12,121 bases of DNA from Hyphomicrobiales bacterium (lineage in GTDB: Bacteria > Pseudomonadota > Alphaproteobacteria > Rhizobiales > JAJFHB01). A program made the translations under genes and the position numbers. The stretch covers positions 1 to 12,121 of the forward strand of contig JAJFHB010000462.1 in NCBI GenBank assembly GCA_021775795.1, given 5' to 3'. The notes under the pieces are model-generated. The model was not told the DNA's origin, did no database searches, and was given only the letters and a program-made list of their open reading frames with translations. Of the stretch, positions 489 through 11,690 are shown piece by piece (position 1 is the first letter of the stretch; every line of letters starts with the position of its first letter).

Positions 489-1409
489 TTATTCAGCTGC
501 GGCGCGCCGGTTGTCGGCAAAAATTTCAGGCAGAGCATCGAGAAGGCTGGAAACCAGGGCCAGCATGTCATCGACGATGCGGTAGAATCCACCATGCTTG
601 GCAAGGCTGTCTTCGTCCATATAGAGCGAGCGGTTCATTTCGAGCTGTAGCGCATGCATGTCATGTGACGGTCGGCCATATGTCTGGGTGATGAACCCAC
701 CGGCATAGGGCCTGTTGCGGGAGACGGTGTATCCCAGTTCTTTGAGCTTCCGCTCCACAATGTCCACAATGGTACCAACACAGGCACTGCCATAGCGGTC
801 ACCGAGAATAAAATCGGGACGTTGGCTGCCTTCGCCAGCCGATTTGGGGACGCTGGAAGGCATGGAGTGGCAGTCAATCAATAGGGCCGCTCCAAAAGTG
901 TCGCGGGCACGTTTCAGGAGCTGTGAAAGACAGCGGTGATAGGGCAGGTGCAAAGCATGAATGCGCGCCTGTGCCTCTGCAAACGTCAGGGGCTGGTTGT
1001 ATATTTCCTCTGATTCCGAAACGATGCGCGCAATGGTTCCAAGGCCGCCGGCAACCCGCACGGAACCTGTGTTGACATAATCGGGCAGCGGGTCTGCGAA
1101 CATTACCGGGTCAAGTTCATAGGGTTCCCGGTTAACGTCGAGATAGGCGCGGGGAAAAAGCGCATGCAAAAGCGGAACGCCCAGGGTGACGACATCTGCA
1201 AATATCTCGTCGACAAAACAGTCTTCCGATTTTCTCAGGCGCTTTCGGTCAAGTGATGAGCGCTGAACGAAGGGTTCTGGATAAAGGCGGCCTGAATGGG
1301 GTGAGCTGAAAACGATCGGGGCACGCAGCACGTCTGGCTCAAGCACCTCCAGCGGCGGCTCGAACCAGCCTGTGGAAGCACAGGCTGAAGTGTCGATCTT
1401 GTCATGCAT
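489..1409 (-). CDS. N-formylglutamate amidohydrolase (HutG-type family), paralog 1
   Basis: This 306-aa protein belongs to the N-formylglutamate amidohydrolase family, whose founding members hydrolyse N-formyl-L-glutamate to glutamate and formate as the last step of five-step histidine degradation. Visible family motifs are SPHSG (36-40), an acidic EDCFVDE segment (62-68), DVNREP (91-96), IDCHSMP (178-184), GDRYG, and LEMNRSLY with Glu267. Several of these carry the His/Asp/Glu residues expected of a metal-dependent hydrolase. The frame is open further upstream to 1553, but I choose the ATG at 1409: AGGA lies 8 nt upstream, and the extra upstream residues look like spill-over into the divergent promoter region. 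No other hut gene is in the window, so a dedicated histidine-catabolic role is not shown. The gene diverges from cpdR across 229 bp and converges with the small RNA. Family is sure; the exact substrate is inferred. Confidence 0.9.
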   Translation of the reverse strand: MHDKIDTSACASTGWFEPPLEVLEPDVLRAPIVFSSPHSGRLYPEPFVQRSSLDRKRLRKSEDCFVDEIFADVVTLGVPLLHALFPRAYLDVNREPYELDPVMFADPLPDYVNTGSVRVAGGLGTIARIVSESEEIYNQPLTFAEAQARIHALHLPYHRCLSQLLKRARDTFGAALLIDCHSMPSSVPKSAGEGSQRPDFILGDRYGSACVGTIVDIVERKLKELGYTVSRNRPYAGGFITQTYGRPSHDMHALQLEMNRSLYMDEDSLAKHGGFYRIVDDMLALVSSLLDALPEIFADNRRAAAE

Positions 1410-1638
1410 TCTTTGTTTTCCTGGCCGACCGTTGACGCCAAAAGACAAGCATGGCCCGGTGATGCATGCAAGCCTGAGGGCAAAGTTCAGGAATAATTGA
1501 TGCTGGATGCGAAAATGCGTGGGGATCGCAGTGTCTTGCCACAGTTTTTGCACGTTTTCACCGCGTATTTACTTTGCTCGATATATATTTCCGGATGATT
1601 CGCCGGGAAGGCGTAAAATAAGAGGGTGGATAAGCCGA

Positions 1639-2076: not shown

Positions 2077-2151
2077 GGGCGTGTAGCTCAGTGGGAGAGC
2101 ACTACGGTGACATCGTAGGGGTCGCTGGTTCAATCCCAGCCACGCCCACCA
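2077..2151 (+). tRNA. tRNA-Val (anticodon GAC)
   Basis: A complete cloverleaf is present. The acceptor stem GGGCGTG (2077-2083) pairs with CACGCCC (2141-2147). The D-arm is GCTC/GAGC. The anticodon stem is CTACG (2102-2106) with CGTAG (2114-2118) around the loop GTGACAT, giving anticodon GAC at 2109-2111. The T-arm is GCTGG-TTCAATC-CCAGC (2124-2140). The discriminator is A, and CCA is encoded at 2149-2151. The GAC anticodon reads the Val codons GUC and GUU. No integrase or attachment-site duplication is seen next to it. Confidence 0.96.
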
Positions 2152-2370: not shown

Positions 2371-2964
2371 CTAGCGGACGTTCCAATAATCGTCTGCAAC
2401 GACTTCTTCACCGGGGGCTTCCTGAAGCTGATTGATATCTGTTTCAGGCGGAGTTGCTGCCGGGATTGGCGTGATCTGCGGTGTAAAGGTTGCGCCACCG
2501 CCGTCGCCATCAGGAATGATCACCAAAGGATCGTTTTCACTCACCGTATAGGTGAACGGGACATCATCAATTGTCAGCGCCGGCGCCGTATAGTCGGTGA
2601 GAACCAGGGCCTCAGGCGCTTCGGTCACACTCCGTGTGCTCACTTCTTCTTCGCTGGCGACAAAGGTGTCAGCGGAGGGCACTGCCTCAATCGGCGTTTC
2701 AACGCCAAGACCGGCAATGTCGATGTCTTGCGTCATCTCAATCAGATCACCCAGACCATCGCGGATTACACTGTCTGTTGCTTCGGGGAGCGCCAGCATA
2801 TCAGCCTTATCGGCAGCATTTATGGTTTGTGCCGGGGCTGCTGCGGTGCTTTCCAAAGGCGTTAGTATCGTGCTGCCCAGATTGGACGCAACGACGGCTC
2901 CCCCGACCAGAAGTACTGCTGGAATGGAGAGGGTTAGTAGAAAACTGCGGTTGGGTGCACTCAT
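2371..2964 (-). CDS. Unknown acidic protein with N-terminal membrane anchor or signal sequence
   Basis: I do not recognise the family. From the ATG at 2964 it is 197 aa. A short polar start (MSAPNRS) is followed by a hydrophobic helix at about residues 8-27, then a low-complexity region rich in Ala, Pro, Thr, Glu and Asp with several TP/IP/AP repeats, ending DDYWNVR. This is the layout of a single-pass anchored or exported protein with a disordered acidic tail; no lipobox Cys is seen. An in-frame ATG at 2988 adds eight residues but has no Shine-Dalgarno sequence, whereas a weak AAGAG precedes 2964. It lies about 120 bp downstream of the giant AAA+ gene on the same strand, with a candidate promoter of its own between them and a terminator after it. 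A role as a partner or substrate of the AAA+ protein is only a positional inference. Confidence 0.7.
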   Translation of the reverse strand: MSAPNRSFLLTLSIPAVLLVGGAVVASNLGSTILTPLESTAAAPAQTINAADKADMLALPEATDSVIRDGLGDLIEMTQDIDIAGLGVETPIEAVPSADTFVASEEEVSTRSVTEAPEALVLTDYTAPALTIDDVPFTYTVSENDPLVIIPDGDGGGATFTPQITPIPAATPPETDINQLQEAPGEEVVADDYWNVR

Positions 2965-3041
2965 GTTGGACACACTCTTACCTGTCATTGGTTAATGGGC
3001 ATTCAACAGCTTATTGAAGCCGCCGTTGCCTTCTCTAATCG

Positions 3042-3082: not shown

Positions 3083-6000
3083 TCATTCGACAAGATCAAA
3101 GTTACCTTCGAGCACGCGGTCGATGCGACCGGTCCGCCAGCCTTTCTGCGTGTCCCGCACCAGTGGAGAGGGTGTTTCCCTGTAGTGCCGGACGATGTTT
3201 CGCTTGCCTGCTGGAAGGGCAGCGAAAACTGCAGCGGCGTGTTTGACCAGACTACTTTGCCCGGTGGCCGGGGGTTCGGCTGGCTGGGCGGCAACACTCA
3301 CACGGACCGTTGATCGCTGGTTCTTTCTGGAATTTGCTGCTTCTGTTTCAAAAACGTGTAATCCCGCTTCATCCCGCAATATGGAGTGCGCTCCAAAACC
3401 GGATACGGCCATCGTGAACGCAAAACCTTTCGAGGAGGGGGGGCGTTTGCTTTCGATTATCTTGTAGGTCATGCGTCTCTGCTTTGCCCAGGCCACATAC
3501 ATATCAGCAATGCGCATAGCGAAAGATACCGCATCTCCGGATCCTGCAGCATTGCGTCCGGCATCCACACGCAGGAAGGCTTCCAGAGGGAGATCTTTTT
3601 CCAGATCATGAAGGGCTATCTCGAGAAGGTAGAGCGTTTGCGCGAGTGACTGCACCATGTCCCGGGGGGCAGGCCCGTTCTTTTGTTTGCCCGAACCGGA
3701 AATTCTCCGTAGCAGCGATCCCGCCCGGCGCGTGGCCGCCTCAATACGGTCAATACACTCGACCTTGCCAAGAATGCCGAAGCGTTCAGGCGATTTCCAG
3801 AATTCGGGCAATTGCATGAGAGACAGGTTTGCTGCCTTCTCCTCATCCCATGCAGCACTTCCAACCTTCGTTGCAAGATCAGCATGGCAGCCTGCCAGAA
3901 TGCGGGTCTCGGCGGCTTTACCCTCGGCGTTCAGAATCAGGCCGCGCAACGTCAGGTCTGAAGATTTGCTCTTCTCGGACCGGGTGGGCGGCGAACTCTT
4001 CGTTGCAGGTGTCTGCGTTGCATTGGGGTCAACGAATTCGACCTGCAGATTGCCGCTGCGCTCCGTGACAAACAGAAACTGGTCACCCTCGGGAACCTGT
4101 CCACGGACGATCGTTTGCGCCAGTGGTGCCAGCAGATGGCGATCAACGGCGCGTTTTAGGGGCCGGGCCCCCAGATCGGGTGTGAAGCCTTTCTCCAGCA
4201 GAAAATTGATGGCCGCTTCATCCCACTCAACAGCCCATGACCGGGCCCGGAGCCCCCGGCGTTGAAACGCAAGGTCGAGCTCCTTTTGGAGGATGTCACG
4301 CATGATGTCCCGGCTGAGAGGGCGGAAGATCACGACCCGGTCGATGCGGTTTATGAATTCGCGGCGGAAAACCTTTTCGATCTCACCGCTGACGGATGAG
4401 GGATCAAACCCTGCCTGCGCCCCGGCAAAGCCCATTGGGGCGTCGGTTGGAACCGCGGCGCCAAGGTTCGATGTCAGGATGATGATGGCGTGACGGAAAT
4501 CCGCGGTGCGGCCTTGCGCATCCGTGAGGCGGCCATCGTCAAAAACCTGCAGGAAAAAGTCCCAGATTGCCGGGTGTGCTTTTTCAAACTCGTCCAGCAG
4601 GACGACGGAGAAGGGCTGCTCCCGGATTTTGTCTGTCAGTGCGCTCGAGCCCGCCAACTCCGTTCCAACAAGCCGTTCAAGGGAATTGGCGCTCTGCAAT
4701 TCGCTCATGTCGATGCGGATCATGCGCTGAGGTGATCCAAAGAGCCATTCAGCAAGGGTCTTGGCAATCTCTGTCTTGCCGGTGCCGGTCGGCCCCGCAA
4801 AGAGAAACACACCTGCCGGGCGTGTTGGGTCCGTGACGCCGGCCTTGATCATGGCGATGCGCTCAACAAGGCAGTCCACCGCTTCGTCCTGACCGATGAC
4901 ACGGTGATGGAAGTGATCGCGCAATGCGTCGATATTCAATGATTGGGCTTCATCGAGCATTGCAGCCGAGAGGCCGGTAAGTTCGATCAGGGTTGTAAAA
5001 AGATCTTCTCGGGTGATGGTCAAAGAGCCCGTCTTTTGTGTCCCCCTGCCACGCAATAAACGCTGCTCCGTCAGCTGCAGCAATTTGAGGAGGTTCCCCG
5101 GTGCTGCGACCTCTCCGAGGAAGTGCTGAGCCAGATGCCAGGCTTCGTCGATGATACCTTTTTCAGTTTTGGCGGCACGTTGCTGCAGCCATTGCCGACC
5201 GACCTCCAATGTATCGTTTGCACTGAGCGCGTTAATGCGTTCGACGGTGATACAACTGGAAATTCTGGGTTTTGCGAGGCTGAGGCTTTCGTATGCCGCG
5301 GCTGACATTTCGGCAGCAACACGGATTTCGCCGGTCTCCATGTAAGGCAACAGCATATCAAGGGCGCTCACGGCACTGAACCGGTGCGTGCCTGAGAGAG
5401 CCAGGGCCTCGAGACCCGGGATTATCCAGAGTACTTTTTTGCGAGCCTTCAGTTCCTCGATAACACGGCGCAATTGTCCTTCAAATTCGCCGATGTAGGA
5501 CTGGCCCGCGACGAGCTCCGTGTGTCCGGCAACAAATATTGTCCATTTGTCTTTCTGCAGCAGCCGGGCCAACCGGTTTAACACTGCGGATTTGCCGACA
5601 CCTGATGCGCCGACAACGAGAGTAGATTTTGGTGGTTTTGCCTTCAGGGAGCTCGCAAGGCTACGAACATGCAGATCCAGGGCAGAATGAGTGATCAACT
5701 GATCTGCCTGCGCTGTCTGGGCGCTGCTCCAGATCTGGCCGACGCTGTTGAGGGTGTCATCGTTCTGACCAGCTGTTGTGGCAGCCTGCCGAATGTGCTC
5801 GGCCAGTTCATTCTGCATCGCAGTCGGGTCAAATGCGGTGACGCTCTTGAGAAAATGCTCAATGTTGTAGGTATTGTCCGTGTCGAGCCGCGCAAGGGCG
5901 GCCCCGAATGCGGGCTTCTCTCCAGCGGCAATACGCTTTTCAATGAATTCCAGGAGGCGGGTTTTGATCTGATCTTCCCAGAGCTGGTCTGAGGCTTCCA

Positions 6001-6478
6001 CCATCGCAATACCGATGACCGACATTTCTCCAGGGGCGCCCTGGGCCACATGCCGAAATATGAAGTGTGCGGGCCATGCTGCAGCATGACCAAGCAACCT
6101 CAATACTCGGGGCCCGTAGTTTTCGGGCTCCATCTTCCTGCTGATAGCCTCGATGGCCATGCAGGCAAGCATGTCGTTTTCGCCGGCGGCATATCCGAAA
6201 AGATCGTCTTCAGAAAACTTGCCTGAAAGAAGCTCTGTCACGCCTTCTTCGAAGAGCTGGTGTTTGAGCAACTCACCGGGGTGGGCCGCAACTTTTGAAA
6301 AATCTGCAAGCCGTGTCGCCGTGACATACAGGCTGCGCAACGCAGGATCAGAGAACTCGGCACCAGCTTGCAGCTGTTCCTTGCCGGCTTGCATTTTTTG
6401 CAAGACAGCGCGGCCTGCGAAATAGATGGCGAGCGCAAACACTGCGCCGCCCCAGAATGCCGAACCAAGGGTTTCCAT
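3083..6478 (-). CDS. Membrane-anchored tandem AAA+ (ClpA/ClpB-like) protein fused to an RF2-like domain lacking GGQ
   Basis: The protein is 1131 aa counted from the ATG at 6478; a TTG immediately before it is also in frame, and neither start has a good Shine-Dalgarno sequence. Residues 7-26 form a hydrophobic helix, so membrane anchoring is likely, and about 40-260 are helical with no known family. AAA+ module 1 (about 265-470) has Walker A GASGVGKS (290-297) and pore-loop-like SYIGEFE around Tyr328, but its Walker B position reads VLWIIPGLEAL, without the Asp-Glu pair. AAA+ module 2 (about 510-810) is complete in catalytic residues: GPTGTGKT (562-569), VVLLDE (625-630), sensor TSN (669-671), RREFINRID and sensor-2 GARPLKR. 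An MGF tripeptide (682-684) sits where ClpA/ClpC dock ClpP, and the GYVG pore loop of module 2 is missing. Residues about 842-1131 align with release factor 2: FWKSPER, the RMY-like ADMYVAWAK, SGFGAHSILRDEAGLH, and a C-terminal RIDRVLEGNFDLVE. The GGQ domain is absent. The fusion is one uninterrupted frame. Function is inferred as unfoldase or remodeller, with the RF-like domain as recognition module. Confidence 0.92.
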   Translation of the reverse strand: METLGSAFWGGAVFALAIYFAGRAVLQKMQAGKEQLQAGAEFSDPALRSLYVTATRLADFSKVAAHPGELLKHQLFEEGVTELLSGKFSEDDLFGYAAGENDMLACMAIEAISRKMEPENYGPRVLRLLGHAAAWPAHFIFRHVAQGAPGEMSVIGIAMVEASDQLWEDQIKTRLLEFIEKRIAAGEKPAFGAALARLDTDNTYNIEHFLKSVTAFDPTAMQNELAEHIRQAATTAGQNDDTLNSVGQIWSSAQTAQADQLITHSALDLHVRSLASSLKAKPPKSTLVVGASGVGKSAVLNRLARLLQKDKWTIFVAGHTELVAGQSYIGEFEGQLRRVIEELKARKKVLWIIPGLEALALSGTHRFSAVSALDMLLPYMETGEIRVAAEMSAAAYESLSLAKPRISSCITVERINALSANDTLEVGRQWLQQRAAKTEKGIIDEAWHLAQHFLGEVAAPGNLLKLLQLTEQRLLRGRGTQKTGSLTITREDLFTTLIELTGLSAAMLDEAQSLNIDALRDHFHHRVIGQDEAVDCLVERIAMIKAGVTDPTRPAGVFLFAGPTGTGKTEIAKTLAEWLFGSPQRMIRIDMSELQSANSLERLVGTELAGSSALTDKIREQPFSVVLLDEFEKAHPAIWDFFLQVFDDGRLTDAQGRTADFRHAIIILTSNLGAAVPTDAPMGFAGAQAGFDPSSVSGEIEKVFRREFINRIDRVVIFRPLSRDIMRDILQKELDLAFQRRGLRARSWAVEWDEAAINFLLEKGFTPDLGARPLKRAVDRHLLAPLAQTIVRGQVPEGDQFLFVTERSGNLQVEFVDPNATQTPATKSSPPTRSEKSKSSDLTLRGLILNAEGKAAETRILAGCHADLATKVGSAAWDEEKAANLSLMQLPEFWKSPERFGILGKVECIDRIEAATRRAGSLLRRISGSGKQKNGPAPRDMVQSLAQTLYLLEIALHDLEKDLPLEAFLRVDAGRNAAGSGDAVSFAMRIADMYVAWAKQRRMTYKIIESKRPPSSKGFAFTMAVSGFGAHSILRDEAGLHVFETEAANSRKNQRSTVRVSVAAQPAEPPATGQSSLVKHAAAVFAALPAGKRNIVRHYRETPSPLVRDTQKGWRTGRIDRVLEGNFDLVE

Positions 6479-6587
6479 CAATCTGCCGAACTTGTTGCAG
6501 TCAGGTGCAGTTAGCGCTGATTACAGCAAATTGGTACGTCCGTCGCGACACACGTTGAAGTGAGGTAAACGTCGGGAGGTGGTGGAA

Positions 6588-6627: not shown

Positions 6628-7167
6628 TTAAGAGGCTTGCGCCTGCTGGTCATCAACTTCCATGACTTCGGCGGCATTCTGTTTACGGCGCTCGGGGCCT
6701 GTATAATTTGTATCAGTGCGCCGCCTGCGGTCGGGACCGAAGTAACTCTTGGCGCGTATGAAAGGCCTGGGGCGCTCTATGATCTGCAGAACGCGAACGT
6801 AAAGGTCTTTGGCAGATATGGGTTTGCACAGAAATTCTGTGATGCCTGCATCCCTTGCTTCCTCTACGCGACTGCGGTCGGAGTAGGCGGTAAGCATGAT
6901 GATCGGCACATAGGGATTTGGGCTGTCGTTCGCCTGGCGGACGAGCTGAACAAATTCTATTCCATCAAGGGTCTCAAGCGCGTAGTCGACAATTATCACG
7001 TCGGTTTTTGTGCTCTGAAATTCCTCGAAGGCTTCTGCTGCATCCGATGCTTCGGAAATGTTTTGCACACCAAATCCTTTGAGGAGCGTCTTGACGATCG
7101 ACCGCATGTAGCTGTTGTCGTCAATCACCAGAAAGGAAAGGCTTGAGATGTCGTATCTTTTGGCCAT
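6628..7167 (-). CDS. Response regulator with receiver domain and basic C-terminal tail
   Basis: The protein is 179 aa from the ATG at 7167, preceded by GGGTGGGA at 6 nt. An upstream GTG at 7203 would add 12 residues without evident homology. The receiver domain spans about residues 10-125, with Asp16/Asp17, phosphoacceptor Asp51 in VIIVDYALE, Thr83 in MLTAYS and Lys105 in LCKPIS, so phosphorylation should be intact. After the receiver comes FIRAK, then two similar motifs, FGPDRRRR (about 133-140) and YTGPERRK (about 145-152), and an acidic-Gln tail. There is no DNA-binding helix-turn-helix, GGDEF, EAL or HPt domain. The repeated GP[DE]RR tail occurs in other alphaproteobacterial receiver proteins as I recall, with unknown role. 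No cognate kinase is in the window. It lies 149 bp upstream of the AAA+ gene on the same strand, so co-transcription is possible. Confidence 0.9.
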   Translation of the reverse strand: MAKRYDISSLSFLVIDDNSYMRSIVKTLLKGFGVQNISEASDAAEAFEEFQSTKTDVIIVDYALETLDGIEFVQLVRQANDSPNPYVPIIMLTAYSDRSRVEEARDAGITEFLCKPISAKDLYVRVLQIIERPRPFIRAKSYFGPDRRRRTDTNYTGPERRKQNAAEVMEVDDQQAQAS

Positions 7168-7284
7168 TTTTGGTCCCACCCTGTTGGCCACGCTGCCTGT
7201 CACGATTGTCGGATAGGCAGGAGCGTACAGGTTCAGTTCGAAGGCTTGCGCGGCGGCAGCAAGCTCACGCTAGTCTCGTTCATC

Positions 7285-7338: not shown

Positions 7339-7575
7339 TCAAATCATGCCGAAGCGGCCGACGTGGGGTGTGCCGGTTACGAGGCTGACCAGATGCGCCA
7401 ACGCGAGGATGATGACCAGCAGGCAGAGAAACAACACCGGTGTGGTTGGGATGAGGCTTGGCTGACCCACGGGTTTTGGCTGTTTTTCGAACCAAATCAA
7501 CCATCCGCTACCGCCTGCGGCGGCAAAGGCTACGCACGCTGTTAAGACAAATTCTATGTCGATGAAGGGTGCCAT
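7339..7575 (-). CDS. Small membrane protein with two transmembrane segments, unknown function
   Basis: The 78-aa protein has hydrophobic helices at about residues 7-28 and 45-66. They are joined by a short basic, Pro-rich loop (FEKQPKPVGQPSLIPTTP), and the tail is GTPHVGRFGMI. The pattern of hydrophobic spans, helix-flanking charges and conserved-looking LIPTTP and GTPH motifs is typical of a real small inner-membrane protein. The overlapping plus-strand frame has none of this. The ATG at 7575 has only a weak upstream GTGAAAA. It is divergent from rpmJ across about 160 bp and lies 171 bp upstream of the response regulator on the same strand. I recall proteins of this kind in alphaproteobacteria, but their function is not established. 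Confidence 0.75.
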   Translation of the reverse strand: MAPFIDIEFVLTACVAFAAAGGSGWLIWFEKQPKPVGQPSLIPTTPVLFLCLLVIILALAHLVSLVTGTPHVGRFGMI

Positions 7576-10868: not shown

Positions 10869-11690
10869 GTGGAACATATGCTGGAAAGCAACATTGAAAT
10901 GCAAGGCCTCCATGAGCTCCGGTTTCAGGGTAGCGGCGAAGCATTTGAGGTCATTGAAGGGGGGCTTGGGAGCGGATTGCTGATTGTCTGTGATCACGCC
11001 ACCAACATTGTTCCGCCGGAATATAAGAGCCTTGGGCTTGGTGAGGAACAACTCGGCCGCCATATCGCCTACGACATTGGTGTGGAGGCGGTCACTCGAT
11101 CCCTTGCCGAGCGTCTTGGCGTTCCTGCGGTGATGTCGAGATTTTCCCGGCTCCTGATTGACCCAAACCGTGGTGCCGATGATCCGACACTGGTCATGCG
11201 ATTGTCCGATGGAAGTGTTGTCCCGGGCAATGCAACCATCGACGATGAAGAGATCGACTATCGTGTTGAACGTTTTTACCGTCCCTACGATGACGCGGTT
11301 GCCGCTGCAATCGCGACTTTTCAGGTGCAGGGCATAAACCCGGCGCTACTGTCCATACACAGTTATACGCCGGCCTGGAAAGGCATCGAGCGTCCCTGGC
11401 ATGCAGGTGTGCTGTTTGATTGCGATATGCGCTTTGTGGAACCTCTGATTACCGCCCTGCGGACAGAGACGGGACTGATTGTCGGGCGAAACGAACCCTA
11501 TAGTGGAGAGCTGGTGGGAGACACCATGAACCGCCACGGCACCCGCGCCGGGCTTGCTCATGCGCTGCTTGAAATTCGTCAGGATCTGATTGCCGAACCT
11601 GCGGGCCAGGAAGAATGGGCGGAGCGACTGGCAAATCTTCTGCCAGCTATTGTGGAATGCGACAGCCTGCACAAAATAGAGTCTCAATGA
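10869..11690 (+). CDS. N-formylglutamate amidohydrolase family protein, paralog 2
   Basis: The protein is 273 aa from the GTG at 10869, with AGG 9 nt upstream. In-frame ATGs at 10878 and 10899 are possible alternatives. The family motifs run from LLIVCDHATN (37-46) through His65, SRLLIDPNR (93-101), SIHSYTP (162-168) and GRNEPYSG to LEIRQDL (214-220). These parallel SPHSG, DVNREP, DCHSMP, RNRPYAGG and LEMNRSLY in the first paralog, but with little other identity, so it belongs to a distinct subfamily. It is the type that, as I recall, sits next to DUF1244 and pyruvate kinase in alphaproteobacteria rather than in hut operons. A metal-dependent amidohydrolase acting on an N-acyl amino acid is likely; the substrate is not known. 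DUF1244 follows after 47 bp, probably in one transcript. Confidence 0.85.
   Translation: MEHMLESNIEMQGLHELRFQGSGEAFEVIEGGLGSGLLIVCDHATNIVPPEYKSLGLGEEQLGRHIAYDIGVEAVTRSLAERLGVPAVMSRFSRLLIDPNRGADDPTLVMRLSDGSVVPGNATIDDEEIDYRVERFYRPYDDAVAAAIATFQVQGINPALLSIHSYTPAWKGIERPWHAGVLFDCDMRFVEPLITALRTETGLIVGRNEPYSGELVGDTMNRHGTRAGLAHALLEIRQDLIAEPAGQEEWAERLANLLPAIVECDSLHKIESQ

Follow-up and report, generated by a model that had tools for sequence, protein, structure and literature searches.

Described relatives

In bacterial release factors the catalytic domain is an insertion in the stop-codon-recognition domain, and the helical N-terminal domain interacts with GTPases (PMC6514570, accessible text). The same text describes catalytically inactive Dom34, which acts on stalled ribosomes in eukaryotes, and the release-factor-like Vms1, which works with the AAA+ protein Cdc48. 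Chloroplast PrfB3, an RF2 relative without the SPF and GGQ motifs, binds the 3' UTR of petB mRNA (accessible text of PMC5897788). Among Hsp100 ATPases, an LGF loop is used to tell ClpC from ClpB, and ClpI of the Actinomycetota is a distinct class outside ClpB/ClpC, with or without this loop (PMC10149685, the part available).

The window, by which we mean the whole stretch of 12,121 nucleotides that was analysed, encodes a Clp-type ATPase with an RF2-like tail, in effect a translation release factor built permanently into an Hsp100-type machine. With RF2 (prfB) the tail shares the predicted fold of domains 1, 2 and 4 and the order of conserved segments up to the last residues. It differs in lacking domain 3 with its GGQ, the SPF motif and the GGT tip, in being fused to an AAA+ part, and in a domain 2/4 that is basic where that of RF2 is acidic. 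Like ClpC, ClpA and ClpB, the protein has two AAA+ modules plus a D2-small domain, and it has a ClpC-type GF loop. Unlike them, it lacks an intact D1 Walker B pair and the D2 GYVG motif, and it adds a probable N-terminal membrane helix, a helical domain and the RF2-like tail. ClpI is comparable as an Hsp100 class of its own; its description in the available part of PMC10149685 differs, with conserved features for ATP hydrolysis and unfolding and no mention of a release-factor-like tail.

PrfB3 is a precedent: this RF2 relative lost both SPF and GGQ and gained another role, whereas no ATPase fusion is described for it in the accessible text (PMC5897788). Vms1/Cdc48 and Dom34 resemble the fusion in combining a release-factor-like fold with an AAA+ machine, or in placing a dead release factor paralogue on stalled ribosomes. 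However, their fold is the archaeo-eukaryotic one, structurally unrelated to the bacterial one, and they are not fused to AAA+ (PMC6514570, accessible text). PrfH (PDB 9mq4, 9mor, 7sa4), which the PDB titles describe as binding damaged 70S ribosomes, is a much weaker match. In the accessible text of the release-factor survey PMC6514570, 'Clp' does not appear, and 'AAA+' appears three times, always in connection with Vms1 and Cdc48. That text centres on the catalytic domain, which is absent from fusions of the window's type (clade 1 below), so the fusion may have been missed there. No description of it was found in the literature that we searched, mostly without subscription papers.

The fusion protein and its annotation

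3086..6478, minus strand: complete fusion protein of 1131 aa, probably starting with the ATG at 6478; stop codon 3083-3085

The program-made list of open reading frames gives a minus-strand frame at 3083-6481, encoding the double AAA+ protein, with TTG as the listed start. An ATG follows directly, at 6478, where the database copy P0002 (1131 aa) begins; residue numbers are those of P0002 unless stated. Pfam families matched are AAA_2, ClpB_D2-small and PCRF. Clp_N is not among the matches listed (25 of 40 Pfam families). The sequence-only reading had proposed a release-factor-2-like domain fused to the C-terminus of a membrane AAA+ unfoldase. Profiles and fold prediction bear out the fusion of an RF2-derived scaffold to a Clp-type AAA+ part: the PCRF profile match is significant (33.8 bits, above the curated cut-off of 24), and the release-factor fold of domains 1, 2 and 4 is predicted for the tail. 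Whole-protein models fit poorly, with NCBIfam prfB at 31.0 bits (cut-off 370), the RF1 model at 18.8 bits (far under its cut-off), ClpB at 324 (cut-off 1232) and ClpA at 313 (cut-off 993). By sequence comparison and predicted fold, the tail is homologous to RF2 and has lost its motifs, and the motor has the D2 ATPase residues and the GF loop.

There is next to no chance that the resemblance is accidental or a low-complexity artefact, or that the fusion is an assembly error. The score of the real tail is far above those of shuffled and reversed nulls, which rule out chance resemblance to RF2, and the same fusion occurs in 55 other database proteins (56 matches with the window protein) and in 14 other genomes, as one open frame in 13 and, in G012, as a fragment of the tail where a contig ends. 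The idea that the family might already be catalogued holds for automatic annotation only: precomputed Pfam lists give the pair PF07724 and PF03462 in most relatives, and one relative has the JGI name 'ClpA/protein subunit release factor B'. Thus automatic databases already hold the fusion as a domain pair.

Comparisons were made within three clades. Clade 1 comprises 54 proteins with the same fusion as the window protein. Clade 2 comprises P0056 and P0058-P0065, with the same kind of AAA+ part, one of them named Gemmataceae. Clade 3 comprises 43 proteins found with locus L032, its own included, from Saprospiraceae, some named Aureispira.

Probable membrane helix and N-terminal domain

6368..6472, minus strand: hydrophobic helix near the N-terminus, residues 3-37, probably a membrane anchor, with Lys/Arg C-terminal to it (structure model; Kyte-Doolittle 1.58 over 19 residues)
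5771..6346, minus strand: all-helical N-terminal domain, residues 45-236 (structure model)

That the protein sits in a membrane fares better for clade 1 than for the window protein itself. A Kyte-Doolittle maximum of at least 1.8 over 19 residues is reached by 41 of 47 near-full-length proteins of clade 1, by none of 9 proteins of clade 2 and by 1 of 41 of clade 3, and the anchor is mainly a clade-1 trait. The helix in the window protein, with a maximum of 1.58, falls below this cut, which we count against a membrane-anchored explanation. The helical domain may be called HEAT-like by analogy only, from a HEAT_2 match in the sister protein P0063.

The AAA+ motor

5039..5695, minus strand: AAA+ module D1, residues 262-480, with Walker A retained and a degenerate Walker B (Pfam, alignments)
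5480..5509, minus strand: D1 pore-loop-1, AGQSYIGEFE, aromatic kept (Y/F/W in 46 of 46 clade-1 cores)
5399..5440, minus strand: degenerate D1 Walker B region, KKVLWIIPGLEALA (core alignment)
4319..5011, minus strand: AAA+ module D2, residues 490-720, with Walker A and B, both sensors and the Arg finger intact
4619..4681, minus strand: D2 pore-loop-1 region, shortened, without GYVG or any aromatic in the window protein (core alignment)
4409..4447, minus strand: position of the ClpC-type ClpP-docking loop, ...PMGFAG... (clade-1 loop alignment)
4064..4318, minus strand: D2 small domain, ClpB_D2-small (Pfam)

Motor cores were cut from 46 of 54 clade-1, 8 of 9 clade-2 and 42 of 43 clade-3 proteins (n=96); the remaining 8, 1 and 1 could not be cut for the core alignment. 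They were aligned with 68 controls, presumed to be ClpB/ClpC by similarity rather than identified singly. In D1, the glycines and Lys of Walker A are invariant (29 sequences). None of the 96 family cores has an intact Asp-Glu pair in Walker B, whereas all 68 controls do. Two clade-1 proteins (P0037 and P0040) have the Glu alone, with Pro for Asp, and clade 3 mostly has Asp-Asn. The D1 pore aromatic is present in 46/46 clade-1, 8/8 clade-2 and 0/42 clade-3 cores, the last having I or V instead.

The ATPase site of D2 is complete by sequence, with an invariant Walker A, Walker B kept in 95 of 96 cores (the other is gapped), and both sensors and the Arg finger kept in all 96; in clade 1, these four elements are present in 45-46 of 46 cores. 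GYVG is found in the D2 pore loop of none of the 96 family cores, whereas all 68 controls have the GYVG aromatic. Any aromatic in this region is mostly absent from clade 1 (5/46), mixed in clade 2 (3/8) and usual in clade 3 (41/42), which may keep a shortened aromatic D2 pore loop. Loss of GYVG argues against ordinary Clp threading, and hence against a plain role in degradation. Of the designation as an AAA+ unfoldase, the AAA+ part stands, with two modules and a D2-small domain; the unfoldase part is put in doubt by the absence of an intact D1 Walker B pair and of GYVG in D2.

The loop on the ClpP-facing side has G in 96 and F in 92 of the 96 family cores. In clade 1, where 53 loops were aligned from the 54 proteins, both residues are at 100%, most other positions are at 24-69%, and a few further along the loop are conserved. 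The residue before GF is [LIVMF] in 47 of 53 loops (the window protein has MGF) and Pro in 6, which we count against the docking explanation proposed below. A ClpP family was found in 14 of 14 carrier genomes searched, with G012 left out. To our knowledge ClpP is nearly universal in bacteria, so its presence in carriers says little.

The best PDB matches of the motor are ClpC and ClpB. In a quick tree of 72 cores, the 28 presumed ClpB/ClpC controls group together, apart from all other groups, on a long branch (length 1.82, support 100). Clade 1 has a support of only 63 in the same tree, and three long rows are unsurely placed. By sequence, the fusion protein adds a separate Hsp100 branch in which D1 has the pore aromatic without the hydrolysis pair and D2 has the hydrolysis residues without GYVG.

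The release-factor-like tail

3950..4027, minus strand: flexible linker between AAA+ part and tail (pLDDT <50 at residues 820-840)
3590..3949, minus strand: RF2-like domain 1, helical, FWKSPER at 893-899 (RF2 comparison)
3287..3589, minus strand: RF2-like domain 2 (PCRF core), first part; GGT tip and SPF loop lost (Pfam, RF2 alignment)
3200..3286, minus strand: short linker at the place of the RF2 catalytic GGQ domain 3 (RF2 alignment)
3086..3199, minus strand: C-terminal segment, RF2 domain 2/4, Arg-rich, among the best conserved of the tail (alignments)

The 64 alignment columns that are invariant in 12 RF2 proteins (at least 9 without a gap) were compared with 15 clade-1 tails. Eleven are kept at the 90% cut, in 93-100% of the tails (M153, G187, E197, G199, H201, V222, R257, Y259, D269, V282 and G285 in tail numbering). 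Nineteen, mostly in domain 3, are gapped in half or more of the tails. Lost are the GGT tip and the W that follows it, the S of SPF, the R of GVHR, the RxTSF motif, and domain 3 together with its GGQ; the S of SPF is gapped in all 15 tails, and none of them keeps the T of GGT. The P of SPF aligns with Pro in 10 of the 15 (the window tail is an exception), and the alignment around SPF is therefore unsure. The window protein has no GGQ anywhere and its tail has no SPF. None of the 54 clade-1 proteins has GGQ or SPF at the RF2 place; the strings occur by chance elsewhere in the C-terminal parts, GGQ in 4 and SPF in 1. The RF2 motifs lost here are those for codon reading and peptide release. Many RF2 invariants beyond the known motifs are also lost, which points to a broad loss rather than one aimed at function, and so tells against a docking role.

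Given that the catalytic domain is an insertion (PMC6514570, accessible text), clade 1 resembles RF2 minus that insertion. On alignment, the tail is best described as an RF2 without catalytic domain or codon-reading motifs. The genome of the window also encodes two separate release factors with GGQ, as read from their frames; thus the tail is not a replacement for them.

Over 27 sequences, mean pairwise identity is 44.5% for domain 2/4, 38.6% for domain 1, 40.5% for D1 and 64.9% for D2, which makes the tail about as conserved as D1. The mean net charge of domain 2/4 is -5.8 in RF2 (n=12), +1.6 in clade-2-type tails (n=11) and +5.4 in clade 1 (n=15), where it ranges widely, from 0 to +10, and where it comes to just +2.6 with other boundaries (27 sequences).

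Sister clades and diverged relatives

Clade-2 tails align with RF2 over 308 columns, domain 3 included (E 9.7e-31; score 220.3 versus 21.5 for the best of 40 shuffles). No GGQ was found in the last 360 residues of 11 clade-2-type proteins (the 9 members plus P0057 and P0066), so domain 3 can persist after the loss of GGQ. Clade 2 is thus a possible half-way state, by sequence, between RF2 and clade 1. The clade-3 tail is probably release-factor-like as well, judging from scores of 58.4 against clade 1 (best of 40 shuffles, 23.6) and 40.2 against RF2 itself (best of 40 shuffles, 21.8). The AAA+ family with this diverged tail comprises L032 9302-12598 and P0067-P0109, and the L032 protein has no Pfam PCRF match.

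Other related AAA+ proteins were seen as three in tandem in a Deltaproteobacteria MAG (L007 5548-9156, 9209-12793 and 12803-15850), two in tandem in a Verrucomicrobia MAG (L034 9296-12760 and 12757-15093) and one alone in a Planctomycetota MAG (L008 9383-12805). An N-terminal membrane helix is not evident by eye in these proteins. In single-sequence comparisons, the tails of the L008 protein and of the third L007 protein match clade 1 weakly and in register.

Proposed function

We consider it moderately probable that the protein is a membrane-tethered, possibly ClpP-docking Clp-type ATPase in which the RF2-derived tail is an exapted docking module and not a release factor. The N-terminal helix would hold the double AAA+ ATPase of Clp/Hsp100 type at the inner membrane, with the AAA+ part on the cytoplasmic side, as the flanking charges suggest. 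D1 probably binds nucleotide without hydrolysing it, D2 would be the working ATPase, and the conserved GF loop on the ClpP-facing side may still dock ClpP. The tail would either bring a client to the motor or fix the motor to a site, and its ligand could be an RNA or a ribonucleoprotein such as the ribosome. A docking module is favoured because the tail is conserved to the degree of D1, lacks the release chemistry and has become basic, and because PrfB3 sets a precedent; the alignments suggest an old translation factor reused for docking. The shift to basic charge, together with the retained Arg-rich C-terminal strand, makes an RNA or ribonucleoprotein ligand possible. With the stop-codon and release motifs gone, recognition of the RF2 type is unlikely; by sequence, a codon-independent contact with RNA or the ribosome is possible. 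Against the docking explanation we count that the acidic-to-basic shift is an average with a wide spread.

The tail could instead be a mere protein scaffold, for binding a protein client or adaptor or for ring assembly, with no link to RNA or translation. We take this seriously while not expecting it to be right; it overlaps with the docking reading and differs in the ligand. None of the 11 strongly kept RF2 positions falls in a known functional motif, and a flexible linker joins the tail to D2, both of which suit a scaffold, whereas the conserved Arg-rich terminal strand and the charge shift are more than a bare scaffold would require. A narrower form of the docking reading, whose probability overlaps with it, is ribosome quality control, in which the tail would dock, independently of codons, on stalled or membrane-bound ribosomes and bring in the AAA+ motor, possibly together with ClpP, for remodelling of the ribosome or extraction of the nascent chain. 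The tail descends from a factor of the ribosomal A site, the basic domain 2/4 suits an RNA partner, the fusion keeps the N-terminal helical domain that is GTPase-interacting in release factors, and inactive Dom34 and Vms1 with AAA+ Cdc48 are precedents (PMC6514570, accessible text). However, domain 3 and the motifs for codon contact have been lost, the 15 genomes compared have no link to translation genes in common, and we hold this reading to be unlikely. Its most specific version, a membrane-anchored bacterial counterpart of Dom34 and Vms1-Cdc48 whose stripped RF2 body docks on stalled or translocon-bound ribosomes and whose own Clp motor, with ClpP, clears them, seems to us improbable. If the docking module does still touch RNA or ribosomes, it would physically connect protein remodelling with translation at the bacterial membrane.

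Distribution and mobility

Strong tail matches (E 5.1e-61 or better) occur in 5 of 61 genomes of the relatives sample, the window's own included. Twenty further genomes of this sample have weaker matches (E 6.5e-6 to 8.7e-4), in frames 250-394 aa long; the seven frames that were read all have GGQ, indicating ordinary release factors. At least 2 of 299 genomes in the phylum sample have a strong match, own included, and at least 6 of 247 in the phylum to which G064 (the source genome of a Bryobacteraceae contig) belongs have a tail match; both counts are lower bounds, with at most 8 or 9 candidates scored per listed genome. Matches listed in the genome-contigs scan were mostly ClpB/ClpC-like and were not used for counts. 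Named carriers are Ulvibacterium marinum and Lysobacter antibioticus, and database proteins add, by source name, Luteimonas viscosa, Pyrinomonadaceae and Dormibacteraeota. The sporadic scatter over phyla suggests putative transfer and loss.

In the genome searches, a standalone form of the tail was rejected: strong matches lie in frames of 892-1511 aa, the one exception being the 300-aa contig-edge frame in G012. A mobile element was rejected, as the tail had no match among 72,556 plasmids at E 1e-5 or among 50,697 phages at E 1e-3. A defence system was likewise rejected, as PADLOC matches fall on the part of D2 that is generic to AAA proteins, and further matches in the AAA part are weak.

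Gene neighbourhood

6628..7203, minus strand: receiver-domain response regulator, a neighbour about 150 bp upstream on the same strand (Pfam, neighbourhood comparison)

No neighbour is common across phyla in the 15 genomes compared: the AAA gene alone is present in all, which we count against the docking explanation. A conserved operon was thus rejected, with synteny confined to the window's own family. There the surrounding gene order is kept, and a response regulator lies directly upstream in 2 of 3 cases, being present also in L097 (G001) and not found upstream in L096 (G002). The generic receiver-domain cluster has members in 5 of the 15 genomes.

Downstream of the fusion gene, at 2371-2988 (minus strand), is a 205-aa protein with no Pfam match, which has a homologue downstream in G002 (L096 13068-13664). 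The 78-aa frame at 7339-7575 (minus strand) has relatives at the equivalent position in both G001 and G002; it matches no Pfam family above cut-off and appears hydrophobic by eye in G001. The 12 kb also carry two N-formylglutamate amidohydrolase (FGase) genes, at 489-1553 (minus strand) and 10869-11690 (plus strand), and a tRNA-Val(gac) at 2077-2151 (plus strand).
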